This document shows positions 50,403 to 62,367 of a DNA stretch of 64,000 nucleotides, one piece after another. The DNA comes from Gammaproteobacteria bacterium (GTDB lineage: Bacteria > Pseudomonadota > Gammaproteobacteria > GRL18). How positions within the stretch are numbered: position 1 is the first letter of the stretch; every line of letters starts with the position of its first letter. The stretch covers positions 536,011 through 600,010 of the forward strand of contig JADGDG010000001.1 in assembly GCA_016744995.1 (NCBI GenBank), written 5' to 3'. A program made the position numbers and the translations under genes. Below the pieces are notes generated by a model. That model ran no database searches and had not been told where the DNA came from. It worked only from the letters and a program-made list of their open reading frames with translations.

Positions 50403-51341
50403 TTAAATCTCAGCCTCTGGCAAAGCCTTCCGAACAATGTCCAGCAACTCATTCACCTGTGCTATTTCTGGCTTATCCAATGGCGTACCCTCTATGAATT
50501 CAGCCAGTGGTTGATTCATCAAGGGGTGGCTGAATTGAGTGGGATTTGATAAGCCTATATGCTCCCGTAATTTCAGCCAGGCCATAATTTCATAGGGGTA
50601 AAGTTGATTATAAGTATTGTTAAATTCAAAATAGTCTTCATCGGGATTCTGTTCTTCTTGAGTTTGACTAAGGTGGTAGTCAGACATTTGATTCACATAT
50701 TCATCAACTTGAGCTAAATCCGTTGTTTGCCAATTTTTAAGAATGTCATCATATATGAATGGTGTATCTTCTCCATCAAACAAAGGATGATCAAACGCTT
50801 CACGTTTAAAAGCAATATCTTGCCAAAGGCAATGAAGTTCAAGCAGGAAAAAACTGGCGGTATCAAATGAATAACCATCTTTAATAACGCCACCACCTTT
50901 TTCGGGTGATTTGAGGCAAAGCCTGCCAATTTCACTTGCTTCATTAAACCAACCCGATAAAATACAATTTGCCCATATCAGCAGAACGTCACCTGAAAGG
51001 AAAAAGTCTGGCCTGCGAAAACGATTAAACTCACCTTTTACTTTTACTGCCAGATAGCCACACCAGGCTGATTCAGCAAAAGTGGATGTTTGAATGAGTT
51101 TACTGTCTAAATGAGCACAAGCATATTGACTGTAATCTAAATTCCATTCACTTAACGACTTTAAATAATCATCAGCCATATAGTATTCATCAGGCTCATC
51201 GATAACTTCCTGAATATTTTCTTGTTCTGAATCCAGCAAACCACATTGACCTAAATCATCAGGATATAACCAACCTTTTTTTTCTATATAATCCTGATTG
51301 GTTTCTTTAATTAATTTTGATAGTATATTATTGGTACTCAT
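50403..51341 (-). CDS. Presumed immunity protein to the adjacent nuclease toxin
   Basis: A 312-residue acidic, soluble protein (many Asp/Glu; helical, no signal or membrane segment). GAAGGG lies before ATG 51341. The FFLSGDVLLIWANCILSGW segment followed by a helical bundle resembles the all-helical DUF1911-like immunity proteins paired with PoNe-type nucleases, but that is pattern recognition only. It follows the toxin gene by 60 bp on the same strand, the usual toxin-then-immunity order, which is the main argument for its role. Confidence 0.55.
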   Translation of the reverse strand: MSTNNILSKLIKETNQDYIEKKGWLYPDDLGQCGLLDSEQENIQEVIDEPDEYYMADDYLKSLSEWNLDYSQYACAHLDSKLIQTSTFAESAWCGYLAVKVKGEFNRFRRPDFFLSGDVLLIWANCILSGWFNEASEIGRLCLKSPEKGGGVIKDGYSFDTASFFLLELHCLWQDIAFKREAFDHPLFDGEDTPFIYDDILKNWQTTDLAQVDEYVNQMSDYHLSQTQEEQNPDEDYFEFNNTYNQLYPYEIMAWLKLREHIGLSNPTQFSHPLMNQPLAEFIEGTPLDKPEIAQVNELLDIVRKALPEAEI

Positions 51342-51401
51342 ACAATTTCCCTTCTTTACAGTCTTTATCTATTATCATTTTCTTACGTGGATATGATGAT
51401 G

Positions 51402-52748
51402 TCAGGCATTCCAGTCATTGCACCTTATTTCAGTTCCATATTTTTTATTGCACTTCCCTGATAGTTTGCCTGACGAGGATAATTTTCCTTGTGGGTTGAC
51501 TCTTTGCCCATAACAGCCTGTCGAATCTTTTTCCAATTGGATGCGGCAAACTTTGTAAGTGATGTTATTACTGGCTTTTTTAATTTCTTTTTTTAATTCT
51601 TTGAGTTTTTTTCGATAAACCTGATCACTATATTTTGCCTTCCACTGGCCTTTTCCTCTTATATTTCCGGCCTCCATTGCTTTGATTCGATCTTTTGTAT
51701 ATTTTTCTCCACCTTTTTTCTGAAGCTTGGATAACGGCATTCGGCCACTGTCCGTTGCAGTACTCTTGGACTCAACAAAGACAAGTTCACCACTTTTTCT
51801 GTCTTTAAATGCATGGTCTATACCATTGCCACTGCCATTTTTTAAACTGTTGGTATCAAAGGGCTCAAAATCTTTGCCATAATGCTTTTCAATCAGTTGC
51901 TCACCACAATTGCCCTTAGGCTGTTGACCTCGACACTTTATTGGGTCTTTATTGTCATCATTCTTGTCGTTATTACCGCCATTGTTTTCATTACCACTGT
52001 TATTATTCTTCTTGCCTTTTCCTTTGCCGCCAGAGGGCAAATCACCATTTAAGACCTCTTCTGCATCGTCTGATTTTTCATCAATCTCCATCCCTTTTTT
52101 GATCGCCTTAACTTTGCCCAAAGGGGTTAATTGTTCAACAATAGCCGCCCCTGCCGCAATAGCCGCTTGTCGGTAGTCACCCTCATGATAGTGTTCTTTT
52201 ATTTCTTCAATGCCTTCTTCTGCATCCTTAAGCATCGAATCTAATATTTTGGTATTTGTTTTTCCTGCTCCACGACTCCAGTCTTCCACTTTTTCAAAGG
52301 TGGTTTTTTCAGCTCCAGGGGGAGAGGGTTGATTAATGATTGAAATGTCTGGCACATCATCGTCTTGGTCTGGCACATCCTGTTGAACGGCAACTGGTTT
52401 TTTCATACTATTAGGCGTTCGCCAATGGATGCTTAAAAGTATATCCTTTAGCCATGCGTCATAATTTTCAACGACACCAGGGTATGAGACCCATTGACCT
52501 TTTTGTGGATTATCTGGATCTTTTTTCCATGTAAAAAGAGGCAATGAAGGGGTATCTGAACCACTATAGACGACAAAAAGATTGCCTCTCTTAAACTCAT
52601 CACAATAGTCTTCAAAAGCATCAATGTTGCCACTACTTCCATAGCCTCTACCGCTAAAACTATCTCTTACCGCATAGCAAGCAAAGTCAGGGGCTTCAAT
52701 ATTGCCTAAATCATCTAAAGTTAACTCGTCACGTCTTTTAATTTCCAT
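51402..52748 (-). CDS. Polymorphic toxin with C-terminal PD-(D/E)XK nuclease domain
   Basis: A 448-residue protein with RBS AAGGAAG before ATG 52748. The N-terminal part (1-160) is unrecognised. A helical segment (160-235) carries a glycine/alanine hydrophobic patch. Residues 239-268 are a low-complexity Gly/Asn/Lys linker, and the C-terminal domain (270-448) has nuclease hallmarks: GNCGE (E283), GID (D311) and VESKS (E326, K328) in PD-(D/E)XK spacing, plus four late cysteines. Linker plus compact nuclease is typical of secreted polymorphic effectors such as PoNe-type T6SS toxins. There is no signal peptide, PAAR or VgrG domain. The orphan hcp at 12.9 kb shows the genome carries T6SS parts. 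Confidence 0.65.
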   Translation of the reverse strand: MEIKRRDELTLDDLGNIEAPDFACYAVRDSFSGRGYGSSGNIDAFEDYCDEFKRGNLFVVYSGSDTPSLPLFTWKKDPDNPQKGQWVSYPGVVENYDAWLKDILLSIHWRTPNSMKKPVAVQQDVPDQDDDVPDISIINQPSPPGAEKTTFEKVEDWSRGAGKTNTKILDSMLKDAEEGIEEIKEHYHEGDYRQAAIAAGAAIVEQLTPLGKVKAIKKGMEIDEKSDDAEEVLNGDLPSGGKGKGKKNNNSGNENNGGNNDKNDDNKDPIKCRGQQPKGNCGEQLIEKHYGKDFEPFDTNSLKNGSGNGIDHAFKDRKSGELVFVESKSTATDSGRMPLSKLQKKGGEKYTKDRIKAMEAGNIRGKGQWKAKYSDQVYRKKLKELKKEIKKASNNITYKVCRIQLEKDSTGCYGQRVNPQGKLSSSGKLSGKCNKKYGTEIRCNDWNA

Positions 52749-55253: not shown

Positions 55254-55282
55254 TTGACCTAATTACCGGGTTATCATATAAA
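55254..55282 (+). promoter_or_regulatory. Sigma-70 promoter of the lyase operon
   Basis: TTGACC (55254-55259), a 17-bp spacer and TATAAA (55277-55282), near consensus at both boxes. Predicted start near 55289 gives a 26-base leader to ATG 55315, with AAGGAAA as ribosome site. Confidence 0.65.
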
Positions 55283-55314
55283 TTAATAACACCTGATAAA
55301 TAAACCAAGGAAAT

Positions 55315-56448
55315 ATGATGGCCTCAATCATAGACTTCTCAAAGATCTCTGATACTGATGATTTGACTCCAATCCTTGGAGACTACTGGCCTGGCATCCA
55401 GTTTTACTACCCGCCCATCAAATACAACCCATTAGACGGCAGTTATGAAAACATGGAACAGGCCAGGCTGCGTCTGCAAAAACATGCTTATAGAACTAAT
55501 GCACATACCTTGCTGTTTGATTTAGAAGATGGCTGTCGAAAAAAAGCCATGAGCCGGGAATTATTACTCCAGGAACTGCCCCGTTTTCCTGAGCGAAATT
55601 TTCAGATTGCGGTACGAATCAATCAGTTTCGAACTGAAGAATATGAAGCTGATCTAAAAATGATAAAACAGATCCATCAATATATTGATGTTATTGTTTT
55701 ATCAAAAGCAGGTGAGGTTTATGGTGATGCAGAAATTCGTGATCTGTCATCCTGGCTGGTTTCAATTAATAGCAGCATTACTATACAACCGATTATTGAG
55801 CATCCCAAGTCACTGCAAATTGTCTCTAATATGATGAAGTATTCAACTGTAAAACATGTTGTTTTCGGCATCCATGATTTCTCAAAAGCAATGGCGTATA
55901 AGATTACACCGGAAAATTGGATCGTTGAACTCAAAACATTTTTTAATATGCTCACCATGGAAGCCCGTATTAATGGCACTGGAGTGATTGGTGGAGTAGA
56001 AGTGATGTTAACACCACACAATATGCCTGAACAATGTGTTGAACAGAAAGATATCCGACGATGGTTGGATTTGCATGGTGATAAAGCCTCACGCTGTGTA
56101 TATGACCATGCGAAAACTGAAAATTCCATGGGCCTGACTGGTAAGCAGGTCATTCATCCCAATCATATTAATTTATGCAAAGTGGCATTTACGCCCTCCC
56201 CTAAAGAAATTGATCACAATGTTTCAGTGTTAAAGGCTGCTATTGATGCAGATGCCTTATTAGGTGGAGCGATTCGCTATGATGGTGAAATGCTGGATCC
56301 ACCCATGTTTGGTAAGGCCTTACAAAACATTTTAAGGGCCTATGCACTCAGAACTCTACCACTCAAAGAGCAAATGTTTGCCATGGAAGTTTTAAGTAAA
56401 CTCCCCATTCATACCATTAGAGAAAACTGGCCCTATGGTCAAATATAA
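55315..56448 (+). CDS. HpcH/HpaI-CitE family lyase
   Basis: A 377-residue protein (either of two adjacent ATGs may start it) of the CitE-like TIM-barrel lyases. The FDLEDG motif (D69-E71-D72), metal-ligand Glu162 in PIIEHPKSL and Asp188 in FGIHDFSKAM are present, and the barrel closes with GKQVIHPNHI and AFTPS. Members cleave malyl-CoA, methylmalyl-CoA or citramalyl-CoA-type substrates to glyoxylate or pyruvate plus acyl-CoA. It is longer than Mcl1 or CitE (about 290-320) by an N-terminal 40 residues and a C-terminal extension. First gene of a four-gene operon, 12 bp before the next. Confidence 0.8.
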   Translation: MMASIIDFSKISDTDDLTPILGDYWPGIQFYYPPIKYNPLDGSYENMEQARLRLQKHAYRTNAHTLLFDLEDGCRKKAMSRELLLQELPRFPERNFQIAVRINQFRTEEYEADLKMIKQIHQYIDVIVLSKAGEVYGDAEIRDLSSWLVSINSSITIQPIIEHPKSLQIVSNMMKYSTVKHVVFGIHDFSKAMAYKITPENWIVELKTFFNMLTMEARINGTGVIGGVEVMLTPHNMPEQCVEQKDIRRWLDLHGDKASRCVYDHAKTENSMGLTGKQVIHPNHINLCKVAFTPSPKEIDHNVSVLKAAIDADALLGGAIRYDGEMLDPPMFGKALQNILRAYALRTLPLKEQMFAMEVLSKLPIHTIRENWPYGQI

Positions 56449-56460
56449 AAGGAACTCATC

Positions 56461-58983
56461 ATGGAATTAGCAGCATACCCGGATTGGAAAATTGAAGTGC
56501 CTGAATTTTTGAATATTGGTCAGGCTTGCACTTCAAAGTATATGGGAACTGATAAAGAACACAGAATTGCCATGATCATTGAAGACAGTGACCTGGGCAC
56601 TTTTGAGCTGTCCTATAAAGATCTCTCAACACAGTCTGATCAATTTGGCAATTTTCTTATCTCAATTGGTCTGGAAGTGAGAGACAGGACATTGATTTGT
56701 CTTAAAAACTCACTGGCTTATCCCATTGCTTTTTTTGGTGCAATTAAATCCGGCATTATAGCCGTGCCCACCTCAACCTTATTAAGTGGTTCTGAGGTTA
56801 AATATTTAGCCAATGACTCACAGGCTAAAGCACTTGTAGTCTCAGCATCTATTTATAAAGATTTACTGCCTTATGTGGAAAATCTTGTTAATCTAAAACA
56901 CATTATTGTTGCCGGCCTTGAGAATGATTTGGAACTGACACAGCCGGATGGTGTGAGTGTTTATGACTTAAATGAGATACTCAATGACACGGACAAAACT
57001 CCCCATCATTATAATTCAAAATCAGGCGAGCCAGCCTATCTGGTTTATACTTCAGGGACTACAGGTTTTCCAAAAGGTGTTTTGCACTCTCATCGTTCTT
57101 TAGTGGGACGTGAACCAGCCAGCGAATACTGGTTTTCTTTAGAAGGCAATGATCGCATTATGCATTCGGGGAAATTTAACTGGACCTATGTACTGGGTTC
57201 AGCATTAATGGATCCGCTATATCATGGACAAACTGTAGTCGCCTATGAAGGAAAGAATGAACCGGGTTTATGGATCGAGTTAATACAACGTCATAAATGT
57301 ACGATCTTTATTGGTGTGCCGACAATTTATCGTCAGATCATTCAAAAAACAGAATGTACCATTAAAGATGTTCCCAGTTTACGCCATTGTATGAGTGCCG
57401 GTGAACACCTGTCCAGTGAGATGGTCATTGCCTGGCAGGAACGCTTTAAACAAAATATTTATGAAGCAATTGGCATGAGTGAATTTTCCTATTACATCTC
57501 TCATTCTCTGCATCGTCCTATACGTCCAGGTTCAGCAGGATTTGTACAGCCTGGGCATAAAGTTAAAATACTTAACCCGGAAACTATGCAGGAGGTTGGC
57601 ACTGAAGAAGAAGGAATGATCTGTATCAGCATGGATGATCCCGGACTGTTTCTGGAGTATTGGCAACTGGAAGAAGAAACCCGGCAGGCAAAACGTAATG
57701 GTTACTTTTTTACCGGTGATTATGCCAAGCGGGATGAAGATGGTTATATCTGGTTTTTAGGGCGTAAAGACGACATCATTAATACCTTTGGCTATCGGGT
57801 CTCTCCCCATGAAATAGAACGGGTTATGAAAACCCATGAACTAGTGGCAGATTGTGTGGCTTTTGGTCTGGATGTGGGTGCTGGAAAAACCATTGTGGCA
57901 ATAGCAATTATTGCCCATGGTGAAATTAGCAATGAGAATGAAGAACAAATTCTACAATACGGTCAAAATAATCTGGCCCGTTATAAGTGCCCAAAACAGC
58001 TGTATATAATTGATGAATATCCTAAAACAAAAAACGGCAAGGTGTTACGTAAGGAATTAGTCAAAAATATTGTCAATCAGAAAGCCCGTAAAGACGCCTA
58101 TAGACCTGAACCGTACCGGGCCAGACGCTCAATGTTATTTCTACCAGCCAATAATAAACGTTATATTCAAAAAGCCCGGACTGTGCTGGCTGATGCTATT
58201 ATTTTTGATATGGAATATATTTTACCCAAACATAAAGCAGAAGCTCGAAAATTATTGCTTGAAGAATTCAAAAGAGACAGTTCTTTTGGTCATTCTGAGA
58301 GAGTACTTCGGGTCAATGATCTGGGCAGTAAAGAACTCCAGAAAGATCGGGAAATGCTCAAAGAGCTGGAAGTTGATTCATTACTTTTTCCTCATATTGA
58401 AACACCGGAACAGGTTCTGGAAGCACAGGCTATTATTGATTCTATTGATCCTGAGCTGGAATTTATGATCAATATTGAATCACCCTTAGGTGTTTTAAAT
58501 GTGCAGCAAATTTGTGCCGCCAGTGGCTCCTTAAAGTGTATTGTGATCGGTACCAATAAACTGGCAGATCGGATGCAAATTAATATTAAAAAATCTAATC
58601 AGGCAATACTCTGTCATCTATCGCAAATTGCCCTGGCTGCCAGAGCATATAATAAAATTGTTATTGATGGGCCGCATAATGATGTCATGGATGAATTTTC
58701 ATGTGAGGCATCAACTAAATCTGCATTTCAGTTGGGTTTTGATGGCAAGGCATTAATTCATCCGATTCAGATTGAATATATTAATGATATCTTTACACCG
58801 AAAAAAGAAGATGTTGAAAAAGCGATCAAAATGCTTGACGCTTATGAGCTTGCCCAAAAAGAAGGGCATGAGGTGATCCTGTTTGAAGATGAACTGGTGG
58901 ATAAATATCAGGTGAAATGGTCACAACGTATGATTACTTTATATGATAAATATAAAGAATTAGGTCAGGATAATTTTCTTTAA
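56461..58983 (+). CDS. Acyl-CoA synthetase fused to a CitE/Mcl-like lyase domain
   Basis: An 840-residue fusion. Residues 1-540 are an ANL-superfamily acyl-CoA ligase: P-loop YTSGTTGFPKG (about 196-206), FTGDYAKRDEDGY, GRKDDIINTFGYRVSP and catalytic Lys527 in TKNGK. Residues 550-840 form a CitE/Mcl1-like domain starting RRSMLFLPANN and ending GKALIHPIQI, FTPKKEDVEKA and the Mcl-type C-terminal helix. In this domain the usual DLED motif is DMEY (583-586). Metal-ligand Glu673 is kept, but the second ligand Asp is replaced by Lys700 in GTNKLADRM, so lyase activity may be lost or altered. The ligase probably activates a dicarboxylate (mesaconate or similar) for the hydratase and lyases next to it. 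Confidence 0.8.
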   Translation: MELAAYPDWKIEVPEFLNIGQACTSKYMGTDKEHRIAMIIEDSDLGTFELSYKDLSTQSDQFGNFLISIGLEVRDRTLICLKNSLAYPIAFFGAIKSGIIAVPTSTLLSGSEVKYLANDSQAKALVVSASIYKDLLPYVENLVNLKHIIVAGLENDLELTQPDGVSVYDLNEILNDTDKTPHHYNSKSGEPAYLVYTSGTTGFPKGVLHSHRSLVGREPASEYWFSLEGNDRIMHSGKFNWTYVLGSALMDPLYHGQTVVAYEGKNEPGLWIELIQRHKCTIFIGVPTIYRQIIQKTECTIKDVPSLRHCMSAGEHLSSEMVIAWQERFKQNIYEAIGMSEFSYYISHSLHRPIRPGSAGFVQPGHKVKILNPETMQEVGTEEEGMICISMDDPGLFLEYWQLEEETRQAKRNGYFFTGDYAKRDEDGYIWFLGRKDDIINTFGYRVSPHEIERVMKTHELVADCVAFGLDVGAGKTIVAIAIIAHGEISNENEEQILQYGQNNLARYKCPKQLYIIDEYPKTKNGKVLRKELVKNIVNQKARKDAYRPEPYRARRSMLFLPANNKRYIQKARTVLADAIIFDMEYILPKHKAEARKLLLEEFKRDSSFGHSERVLRVNDLGSKELQKDREMLKELEVDSLLFPHIETPEQVLEAQAIIDSIDPELEFMINIESPLGVLNVQQICAASGSLKCIVIGTNKLADRMQINIKKSNQAILCHLSQIALAARAYNKIVIDGPHNDVMDEFSCEASTKSAFQLGFDGKALIHPIQIEYINDIFTPKKEDVEKAIKMLDAYELAQKEGHEVILFEDELVDKYQVKWSQRMITLYDKYKELGQDNFL

Positions 58984-59020
58984 GCAGTTTAATAATCTAA
59001 ACAATCAACAGGAGTCCGGA

Positions 59021-60079
59021 GTGTCCAGTTCAAAAATAAATATGGGTAATTTTTTTGAAGACTTTAAGCTGCATGAAAAAATTATTCATCCCTTGCCGCG
59101 TACTATCAGCAATGGTGATGTGTCCTTTTATATTGCCTTGACCGGCAGTCGCTTTGCGCTGAACTCCAGCGTAGAAATGGCAAAAGACATGGGCTATATG
59201 GATCGACCCATTGATGATTTATTATTATTTCATATGATTTTTGCAAAATCGGTTACTGATATATCCTTAAATGCACTGGCTAATCTGGGCTATGCAGAAG
59301 TTCGTTTTTTAAAACCAGCTTTTATCGGTGATACCATAAGACTGGAATCAACAGTGATTGGTTTAAAAGAAAACAGCAATGGTAAGTCAGGTAATGTGTA
59401 TGTGCATTCTCAGGCTTATAATCAGCACAACGAACAAATTTTAACTTTTAAACGCTGGGTAATGGTGCATAAATCAAATTCTTCTATTAACTCGGGTATT
59501 AAAGAAATACCCGAATTAGAAGCAGTGATGCCCATCAGTGATGAGCTGAATATTCCAGAGGTTAAGGCACTGGATATCAGTCAAACAGGCAGCCCCTACC
59601 TCTGGGAGGATTACATCAAAGGCGAGCGTTTAAATCATCCTGAAGGCATGACTATTGATAATAGTGATCATACCCTGGCAACCAAACTGTATCAAAATAA
59701 TGCCAAACTGCACTTTGATGATCACTTGATGAAATCAGGAAAAATGGGACAACGTCTTATGTATGGCGGTCATGTGATATCTATTTGTCGAAGTCTTTCA
59801 TTTAATGGTCTTGGAAATGCTCTGTGGCTGTACTCCATTAACTCAGGAGCACATGTGAATCCATGCTTTGCTGGTGATACTCTTTATTGTTATAGCGAGA
59901 TCCTGGATATCATTGAACATCCTCGAAAAGATATTGGTCTGCTGCGTATACGTACCATTGGATTAAAAAATATTAGTCCGGAAGAAGTCTCTCAGGCTAA
60001 GAATGAAGATAATAAGTACCACTCTTATGTTGTATTAGATCTGGACTATACCGTTGTAATACCCAGGCGCAATCAATAA
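59021..60079 (+). CDS. mch: Mesaconyl-CoA hydratase-like double MaoC protein
   Basis: A 352-residue protein with two MaoC-like hot-dog halves (about 10-160 and 195-345), from GTG 59021 with GGAG upstream. NFFEDFKLHEKIIHPLPRTI, ALTGSRFALNSS, NALANLGYAEVRFLKPAF and VIGLKENSNGKSG closely follow the pattern of Rhodobacter and haloarchaeal mesaconyl-C1-CoA hydratase (beta-methylmalyl-CoA dehydratase). The second half has the MTIDNSDHTLATKLYQN and YGGHVISICRSLSFNGL blocks of that enzyme. It interconverts mesaconyl-CoA and methylmalyl-CoA. Third in the operon, flanked by lyases, which fits the sequence of reactions. Confidence 0.8.
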   Translation: MSSSKINMGNFFEDFKLHEKIIHPLPRTISNGDVSFYIALTGSRFALNSSVEMAKDMGYMDRPIDDLLLFHMIFAKSVTDISLNALANLGYAEVRFLKPAFIGDTIRLESTVIGLKENSNGKSGNVYVHSQAYNQHNEQILTFKRWVMVHKSNSSINSGIKEIPELEAVMPISDELNIPEVKALDISQTGSPYLWEDYIKGERLNHPEGMTIDNSDHTLATKLYQNNAKLHFDDHLMKSGKMGQRLMYGGHVISICRSLSFNGLGNALWLYSINSGAHVNPCFAGDTLYCYSEILDIIEHPRKDIGLLRIRTIGLKNISPEEVSQAKNEDNKYHSYVVLDLDYTVVIPRRNQ

Positions 60080-60117
60080 ATCAATTGACTTAAGTTTAAA
60101 TCTGTTAAGGAACCAAA

Positions 60118-61101
60118 ATGACACATCCTAATGAAGCATTATATGAATCTGGTAAAAACCTTCCTATTATACCCAGTTGTGAACACTTTGCCGGTAGTGA
60201 AAAGTTAATAGGTAAAGCCTTCCAGTTACAGGAAAAATTAGGCCCTGTGTTTGATATTACCTGTGATTGTGAAGATGGTGCTGAAACAGGGAAAGAAGTT
60301 GAACATGCCGAGATGATAGTTCGTATGGTTAATTCAGATGCCAATAAATGCACAATGGCTGGAGTACGGATACATGATTTTTCTCATCCTGACTGGCAGC
60401 AGGATGTGGATATTTTAGTGCCTGGAGCTGGGCAGAAATTAACTTATATCACGATACCAAAAACTGAATCATATGATGATGCTCTGGTAATGATTCAATA
60501 CATACAGGAAGCAGCAAAACAGGCTGGTATTGAGCGTGAAATTCCTATTCATGTACTAGTTGAGACACATGGAGCATTAAACGATGTGCATAAATTAGCC
60601 ACCTTACCCTGGCTGCAGGTATTAGATTTTGGTTTGATGGATTTTGTCAGCGGTTATCAAGGGGCTATTCCTGCTATTTGTATGCGTAGCCCGGGGCAGT
60701 TTGAACATAAACTGCTGGCAAGGGCAAAAGCAGAAATTACTCAAGCAGCCTTATCTAACCATATCATCCCGGCCCATAATGTGACTCTGGACTTAAAAAA
60801 TCCATATCAAACCTATTCTGATGCATCACGGGCACGTAATGAATTTGGTTTTATGAGAATGTGGAGTATTTATCCCACACAAATACAAAGTATCGTTGAT
60901 GCCATGAAGCCTGATTTCTCTGAACTGGAAAGTGCCCAGAATATTTTATTAAAAGCCCAGGATAATAACTGGGGACCCATACAATATGATGGTGAATTAC
61001 ATGACAGGGCTACCTATCGATATTTTTGGGAGCTCCTGCAACGTGCTCACTTTAGTGGAACTCAGCTTAAAGAAGAAATACAAAATAAATTCTTTGCTTA
61101 A
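60118..61101 (+). CDS. Second stand-alone CitE-like C-C bond lyase
   Basis: A 327-residue TIM-barrel lyase. CDCEDGAETGKE (D50-E52-D53), Glu149 in VLVETHGAL and Asp174 in FGLMDFVSGY give a complete metal site. The end of the barrel (NEFGFMRMWSIYPTQIQ) differs from the GKxxIHPxQ of classical CitE and is nearer to the C-C_Bond_Lyase group. Likely a beta-methylmalyl-CoA or malyl-CoA lyase acting after the hydratase. Last gene of the operon, 38 bp after it. Which of the two intact lyases takes which substrate is open. Confidence 0.8.
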   Translation: MTHPNEALYESGKNLPIIPSCEHFAGSEKLIGKAFQLQEKLGPVFDITCDCEDGAETGKEVEHAEMIVRMVNSDANKCTMAGVRIHDFSHPDWQQDVDILVPGAGQKLTYITIPKTESYDDALVMIQYIQEAAKQAGIEREIPIHVLVETHGALNDVHKLATLPWLQVLDFGLMDFVSGYQGAIPAICMRSPGQFEHKLLARAKAEITQAALSNHIIPAHNVTLDLKNPYQTYSDASRARNEFGFMRMWSIYPTQIQSIVDAMKPDFSELESAQNILLKAQDNNWGPIQYDGELHDRATYRYFWELLQRAHFSGTQLKEEIQNKFFA

Positions 61102-61536: not shown

Positions 61537-62367
61537 TTGAAAATAATTAGTATGAGCAAAATTATGATGGCACTAATAAGGAACACAATTACAAAGAAAA
61601 CACTTATAAGCACCCTGTTCTTATTTGTTTTATTATCAACAGGATGTGCATCTCTGCCGGGTCCAATCACTCCAATGCCGCGCAGTGATGACTATCGACA
61701 TAAAATTAGTGTGCCTTTATTCAAACCAATTCGTATAGATAGTAAGCCCCAGCAACAAAAAACAAACCATCTGGTCATTTTGTCCGATGATGGCATAAAT
61801 GATCAAAATAGTGTCAAGCAAACATTGAACCACTTGCTAGCGACACTACCAAAAACAATTAATTACAAAAAAACTCATGTTCTGTTCAGTGAAATAGAAG
61901 GAGCACAGAAACATCCAAATACACTGGCCTCTATCCTCAATCATTACAGCAGCCAGGATACAAATTACAACAAAACAACATTTGTAATTCTGACTCAATG
62001 GAATGAAATCAATAAAGCATCAATAACAGAAGCAGAACGTTTATTGACTACACAAAATAAGTCTTTTTGTTTATATATGATTGGCATCAACAATATTCAT
62101 AACAATAAACGTCTTATAGCACCTCAACATTGTGGTGAAACAGTCAGTTCAGAAAGTCTTAAAACACCCAATACAATGGCCAGTCTTGTTAAAAAAATAT
62201 TTTTTTCACCACCAAAAGACAGTGATGGCGATGGTATTTATGATCAACATGATCAATGTCCTGGAACAAAAAAAGAGACCTTAATCACATGGAATGGATG
62301 TCCCAGAAATAGTAAAACCAGCAATCCTCGTTATCTGATCCTAAGCAGTCATTCTGAAACTGACTAA
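61537..62367 (+). CDS. Lipoprotein with a calcium-binding TSP3-like repeat
   Basis: A 276-residue protein if read from TTG 61537; ATG 61552 is an alternative, and neither has a close ribosome site. A signal sequence ends in a lipobox with Ser-Thr-Gly-Cys near residue 37. The mature domain is alpha/beta (HLVILSDDGIND; TFVILTQWNEINKASI), resembling the uncharacterised N-terminal part of OmpA-like lipoproteins. The C-terminus has one thrombospondin-type-3-like Ca-binding motif, DSDGDGIYDQHDQCPG, but no OmpA peptidoglycan domain follows. First gene behind the RpoN promoter, 36 bp before the SLBB export gene, suggesting an envelope role in polysaccharide export. Confidence 0.65.
   Translation: MKIISMSKIMMALIRNTITKKTLISTLFLFVLLSTGCASLPGPITPMPRSDDYRHKISVPLFKPIRIDSKPQQQKTNHLVILSDDGINDQNSVKQTLNHLLATLPKTINYKKTHVLFSEIEGAQKHPNTLASILNHYSSQDTNYNKTTFVILTQWNEINKASITEAERLLTTQNKSFCLYMIGINNIHNNKRLIAPQHCGETVSSESLKTPNTMASLVKKIFFSPPKDSDGDGIYDQHDQCPGTKKETLITWNGCPRNSKTSNPRYLILSSHSETD

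Follow-up and report, generated by a model that had tools for sequence, protein, structure and literature searches.

The 2007 genome paper of Arcobacter butzleri described a cluster, ab1917-ab1921, with the gene order CitE, ligase-CitE fusion, hydratase, CitE, and proposed on paper that it interconverts acetyl-coenzyme A (CoA) and pyruvate with propionyl-CoA and glyoxylate (PMC2147049). A second cluster, labelled 'methylcitric acid cycle' in Methylophilaceae, was listed as prpCBD, cyl1, maoC, cyl2, gntR, mdh, sdhABCD, cyl3, prpE, fum and can, with its role not assigned there (PMC4109929, PMC3728764). At the pathway level, the hypothesis of a citramalate cycle goes back to work on Rhodospirillum rubrum (Ivanovsky 1997; reviewed in PMC8307300), and the full complement of enzymes was never identified (PMC8307300, PMC8490811). 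Here we analyze a four-gene operon in a 64,000-nucleotide stretch of a gammaproteobacterium of the GRL18 lineage (GCA_016744995.1, contig JADGDG010000001.1, positions 536,011 to 600,010, forward strand; hereafter the window), which shares the order, the fusion and the pathway idea of the A. butzleri cluster. A first-pass annotation made from the sequence alone knew of no described operon with this composition; this is contradicted by ab1917-ab1921 (PMC2147049) and by the Methylophilaceae listings (PMC4109929), and the window operon is a further case of a described cluster. The new findings are how widely it is distributed, how strictly it goes with the methylcitrate cycle, and how one of its lyase domains, lyB, can be read. 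We consider it an even call that the operon acts as a C5 relay interconverting acetyl-CoA and pyruvate with propionyl-CoA and glyoxylate, in a bypass that resembles the citramalate cycle and is linked to the methylcitrate cycle.

Layout, distribution and co-occurrence with the methylcitrate cycle

The operon comprises four open reading frames (ORFs) on one strand, separated by gaps of 12, 37 and 38 bp, so that the ORF coordinates agree with the compact arrangement first described. Its features, in window coordinates, are:

55254-55284, + strand: possible weak promoter, TTGACC-17-TATAAA, read by eye from the sequence
55315-56448, + strand: lyA, 377 aa; CitE-superfamily C-C lyase, proposed (S)-citramalyl-CoA lyase (acetyl-CoA + pyruvate)
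56461-58983, + strand: ligase-lyB fusion gene, 840 aa; AMP-forming acyl-CoA ligase plus CitE-type domain
56461-58080, + strand: ligN, ligase half of the fusion (PF00501, PF13193); proposed mesaconate or citramalate CoA ligase
58096-58980, + strand: lyB, CitE-type half of the fusion; malyl-CoA-thioesterase-like clade, active site degenerate, Lys in place of the Mg2+ Asp at codon 58558-58560
59021-60079, + strand: mch, 352 aa, GTG start; predicted double-MaoC mesaconyl-CoA hydratase (PF19315)
60118-61101, + strand: lyC, 327 aa; CitE-superfamily lyase, proposed beta-methylmalyl-CoA (perhaps also malyl-CoA) lyase

Pfam matches reproduce the domain content of the first-pass annotation, with HpcH_HpaI (PF03328) in the first and last genes and again in residues 556-768 of the second, where AMP-binding and AMP-binding_C span residues 46-527. 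The sigma-70 promoter is less secure: a weak TTGACC-17-TATAAA can be read by eye at about 55255, but a consensus promoter scan lists no + strand site upstream of 55315.

A scan with lyC returned more than 580 relatives, and 80 loci were fetched by lyC similarity. Comparison of gene order showed that most of these 80 carry the same gene set together, across Campylobacterota, Gammaproteobacteria and Betaproteobacteria. Because orthologues of all genes cluster in most of these independently fetched loci, the four-gene operon is real and goes beyond chance. The loci of Campylobacterota read lyA, ligase-lyB, mch, lyC, with a class I fumarase gene following in many of them, and those of Arcobacteraceae share the identical order of CitE, ligase-CitE fusion, hydratase and CitE with the window. 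Kangiella and its relatives have the same genes unfused. Methylophilaceae have a split cluster that includes sdh, malic enzyme, GntR and prpBCD; namely, in this family and its relatives lyB-mch-lyC-prpB-prpC-prpD and lyA-sdh-maeB occupy opposite strands, with the GntR gene between them. Among the window's own genus and family the operon has a scattered occurrence (4 of 24 genomes), and the window lyA and lyC lie nearer to the sequences of Campylobacterota than to those of other Gammaproteobacteria, a combination that suggests horizontal transfer.

To define operon genomes we required the gene set in one locus, which gave 41 genomes, in 4 of which the ligase would fall past the end of the sequence examined. 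The methylcitrate-cycle gene prpB scored above cut-off in 38 of the 41. Isocitrate lyase (ICL) was found in none, the PF00463 matches being stretches of about 95 residues inside PrpB-sized ORFs, and crotonyl-CoA carboxylase/reductase (Ccr) was likewise absent from all. Since these genomes were picked by similarity and are related, we used as a check an even sample of 249 Campylobacterales genomes, drawn unselected, with the operon marked by lyA. Here prpB was present in all 21 operon-positive genomes versus 19 of the 228 others (Fisher 7.6e-20, uncorrected for kinship). The operon never occurred without prpB in this sample, which makes the self-contained route of the first-pass annotation doubtful. 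A link this strict to the methylcitrate cycle suggests that the operon may be an overlooked replacement for the glyoxylate shunt.

In the window's genome the methylcitrate-cycle genes lie on a contig other than the operon's, where a PrpE-like ligase, GntR-prpB-prpC-prpD and mdh occur together (L135); prpB was identified by model, and prpC and prpD were read from their ORFs. Also away from the operon's contig is a gene for a class I fumarase that is 58% identical to the copy beside the Malaciobacter operon. The pathway set out below thus has an assignable gene for every step but one, the freeing of the C5 acid from CoA in the fused lineage.

Two further features of the neighborhood recur among relatives. 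IclR or GntR regulators adjoin the operon, and in several Arcobacteraceae (L055, L056, L058, L061, L068, L072) a bioD-like gene directly upstream of lyA replaces the IclR regulator of the others. A conserved protein of about 280 aa lies downstream of the operon at L049 10656-11492 and in 18 further Campylobacterota loci; it has no NCBIfam match and is provisionally labelled DUF5718.

Enzyme assignments

The hydratase is the firmest enzyme assignment in the operon, as judged from sequence. The window mch matches MaoC and MC_hydratase (PF19315, 43.8 bits against a cut-off of 26.5), and its nearest solved structures are 4e3e (Chloroflexus, 49% identity) and 8hgn (Methylorubrum, 48%), the latter being the mesaconyl-CoA hydratase of M. 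extorquens (Methylorubrum extorquens; PMC10164722). The eight substrate-site residues described for that enzyme (F71, S79, N85, R142, N226, H231, Y248 and G249 in 8hgn numbering; PMC10164722) are all present in the window protein, and among its orthologues seven of them are invariant (84/84) and Y248 is kept in 83 of 84. Comparison with characterized Mch revealed no grouping with unrelated MaoC proteins; the protein groups with true Mch and keeps the whole substrate pocket, which supports its membership in the mesaconyl-C1-CoA hydratases (Mch, EC 4.2.1.148) and agrees with the identity first proposed. At two other loci, L041 and L042, an Mch about 50% identical to the window's has another neighborhood, with an acyl-CoA dehydrogenase-like gene next to it, and the L041 genome has a true isocitrate lyase and a malate synthase.

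The last gene, lyC, tentatively joins the Mcl proteins in the tree, at 95/95 support but through a long branch (3.43) and with an inner fork at 80/73. Its catalytic set is conserved in 87 of 87 sequences (the E-D pair E52 and D53, the Arg R84, the Glu and Asp metal ligands E149 and D175, and the lid Asp D296), and with all Mcl catalytic residues kept, the earlier designation as an Mcl-type lyase is supported. The nearest solved relatives, 3qqw and 3r4i, are both uncharacterized structures. Homologues of lyC also stand without nearby mch or ligase on Cupriavidus and Azoarcus plasmids (L127 5992-6987; L128 5989-6981), so that lyC alone is no pathway marker; a plasmid search with lyA returned distant CoA ester lyases only and no orthologue. 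The stand-alone lyC homologue of Cupriavidus pinatubonensis adjoins pyruvate carboxylase, and the 3qqw structure comes from the same species group.

By its sequence, lyA is divergent yet complete as a CitE-type lyase. Its catalytic residues E71, D72, R101, E162, D188 and D328 are conserved in 66 of 66 sequences, PF03328 matches at 36 bits with PF15617 slightly below cut-off, and the RipC_Ccl model reaches 57.9 bits against a cut-off of 375. The predicted fold (pLDDT 70.6) does not point to a substrate, since its matches include both malyl-CoA and citramalyl-CoA lyases, human CLYBL among them.

The ligase half of the fusion matches PF00501 (241 bits) and PF13193, and in most Proteobacteria the corresponding orthologue stands as a gene of its own. 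No family III CoA-transferase (PF02515) is present in the window's genome, which makes the ligase the plausible activating enzyme, as the first-pass annotation had proposed.

The lyB half is read from its lid and metal site. CitE-type enzymes have a lid Asp, except for the malyl-CoA thioesterase group, which has Glu (PMC3832036). The lid residue is Glu in 47 of 81 lyB-family members, namely in the unfused lineages, and unfused lyB groups at 99/96 support with lid-Glu proteins that include one from a Ruegeria locus ordered mdh - CoA lyase - two small genes - MaoC - sdh. By analogy with Rhodobacter, this mcl2-like locus is the putative mcl2/mch locus. With this shared clade and lid-Glu signature, unfused lyB probably hydrolyzes a CoA ester, either malyl-CoA or, pulling the condensation, citramalyl-CoA. 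The fused clade (the window, Campylobacterota and one Chromatiales genome) has a lid Asp, and its Mg2+ Asp is replaced by Lys, Asn, Thr, Gln, Arg or Ser. In the window lyB the lid residue is Asp (ELVDKY) and not the thioesterase-type Glu, the metal-site Glu is kept, Lys stands for the Mg2+ Asp, and a second acidic residue is also lost. The fused-lineage domain is thus probably non-catalytic and may be structural. Of the three CitE-type lyase domains first described, all three folds stand but, with the Mg2+ aspartate of lyB lost, the operon probably has two working lyases, not three. In genomes G107 and G230 (L037, L036) the lid residue of lyB is Gln and the metal position is occupied by Asn, so that lyB has degenerated a second time, separately from the fused clade.

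Proposed pathway and its rivals

In the favored direction, lyA would condense acetyl-CoA and pyruvate to citramalyl-CoA, which would be hydrolyzed to citramalate, with unfused lyB as the candidate hydrolase. A class I fumarase acting as mesaconase would convert citramalate to mesaconate, the ligase would activate it to mesaconyl-C1-CoA, mch would hydrate this to beta-methylmalyl-CoA, and lyC would split the product into glyoxylate and propionyl-CoA. The latter would enter the methylcitrate cycle (PrpC, PrpD, PrpB), which would return pyruvate and yield succinate, for a net conversion of acetyl-CoA to glyoxylate. Here we infer the substrates, the mesaconase step and the direction; production of propionyl-CoA is favored because the operon depends on prpB. 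More broadly, and with somewhat less than even confidence, we suggest that this citramalate-methylcitrate cycle might be a widespread ICL- and Ccr-independent route from acetyl-CoA to glyoxylate and C4 acids in Campylobacterota, Methylophilaceae and several gammaproteobacteria.

Several observations weigh against this reading. In the tree, lyA forms a clade of its own on a branch of length 2.86 and joins no characterized citramalyl-CoA lyase clade, so that its substrate is assigned by elimination. Malate synthase occurs in only 7 of the 41 operon genomes, so that the use of glyoxylate is hard to explain unless malyl-CoA is made and then hydrolyzed. The related genomes G107 and G230 have operon genes without any prpB. 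Among Gammaproteobacteria, where the base rate of ICL is 71 of 274, its absence from operon genomes is not significant (0/6 versus 71/268, p 0.16). Loss of the thioesterase-like site in the fused lineage removes the pull for condensation, and direction is least certain in this lineage, to which the window belongs. A. butzleri showed no growth on acetate or propionate, and the authors of its genome paper preferred the reverse direction (PMC2147049).

That reversal, the same chemistry run from propionyl-CoA and glyoxylate to acetyl-CoA and pyruvate for assimilation of either substrate, is a serious rival, even if we hold it to be less likely. In this case lyC would join the two substrates, mch would dehydrate the product, and mesaconate would be freed and hydrated to citramalate, which the ligase would activate and lyA would cleave, resembling the second loop of the 3-hydroxypropionate bi-cycle minus Mct and Meh. 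CitE-type cleavage to acetyl-CoA and pyruvate is generally favorable; the reversed route also fits the fused lineage with its degenerate thioesterase-like domain and the few operon genomes that have malate synthase to consume glyoxylate. It leaves unexplained, however, why prpB is found in every operon genome of the Campylobacterales sample, given that the methylcitrate cycle would then act as a rival sink, and it requires an extra step freeing mesaconate from mesaconyl-CoA, for which no gene is assigned.

Catabolism of an external C5 acid (mesaconate, citramalate, 3-methylmalate or itaconate), toward which the first-pass annotation leaned, appears improbable. A ligase for the free acid is present, IclR or GntR regulators adjoin the operon in relatives, and the RipB and RipC (itaconate) models do match weakly, but the RipB/Ich and RipC/Ccl scores of 91, 58 and 46 bits lie far below the cut-offs of 340-375. 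The compared loci have no recurrent transporter beside the operon, which argues against use of an external acid, and the genes are kept in a 1.3-Mb methylotroph genome (L124), interwoven with sdh, malic enzyme and prp genes. Metabolite repair, in which the lyases and the hydratase would clear stray C5 CoA esters or methylcitrate-cycle by-products, is very improbable: human CLYBL, a repair-type citramalyl-CoA lyase, is among the lyA structural matches and the operon is linked to the methylcitrate cycle, but the ATP-consuming ligase makes CoA esters and does not remove them, and five conserved genes would be an elaborate route for repair.

Known pathways were also considered and rejected: the itaconate pathway on the RipB/RipC scores, the glyoxylate shunt and the ethylmalonyl-CoA pathway on the absence of ICL and Ccr, respectively, and the 3-hydroxypropionate bi-cycle and the methylaspartate cycle on the absence of PF02515 from the window's genome, where we take the succinyl-CoA:mesaconate CoA-transferase of the methylaspartate cycle to be a family III enzyme.

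Elsewhere in the window, adjacent genes of 448 and 312 aa at 50403-52748 (- strand) resemble a toxin-immunity pair; the C-terminal region of the 448-aa protein, which has no Pfam match, looks nuclease-like by eye. At 61537-62367 (+ strand) lies a lipoprotein-like ORF with a DxDxDG calcium-binding-type repeat and a weak match to a peptidoglycan-anchor lipoprotein family.

Comparison with known systems

In the open-licence literature that we searched, there was no report of this gene set having been tested biochemically. The A. butzleri cluster differs from the window in that its class I fumarase gene directly follows. In the Methylophilaceae cluster, lyB, mch, lyC and lyA have their counterparts in cyl1, maoC, cyl2 and cyl3, respectively, as judged from position and homology, and the counterpart of the operon ligase is presumably prpE; unlike in the window, there is no fusion, sdh and malic enzyme divide the gene set, and prpBCD adjoins it. 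The family lacks both the glyoxylate shunt and the ethylmalonyl-CoA pathway (PMC6794327).

The glyoxylate loop of the Chloroflexus 3-hydroxypropionate bi-cycle has a homologous Mch, an Mcl-type lyase and the same end products as the operon, but uses Mct, Meh and one trifunctional Mcl, whereas the window has separate lyA and lyC and no family III CoA-transferase. With the ethylmalonyl-CoA pathway (Mcl1, Mch, Mcl2) the operon shares an Mch homologue, and it differs by the lack of Ccr (0/41 operon genomes).

Two questions meet in this locus, namely whether the citramalate cycle exists in any organism and what the methylcitric acid cluster, which is highly transcribed in environmental Methylotenera, does there. 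If true, the citramalate-methylcitrate reading would supply genes for the long-hypothesized cycle and explain the Methylotenera cluster; as the gene set occurs in hundreds of genomes, allows almost all C5 steps to be assigned and is strictly partnered with the methylcitrate cycle, both questions become testable. The R. rubrum cycle shares with the proposed pathway the course from acetyl-CoA and pyruvate through citramalate, mesaconate and methylmalyl-CoA to glyoxylate and propionyl-CoA, in bacteria lacking ICL. In that cycle a CoA-transferase activates mesaconate and propionyl-CoA is carboxylated, whereas the window would rely on an ATP-dependent ligase and the methylcitrate cycle.

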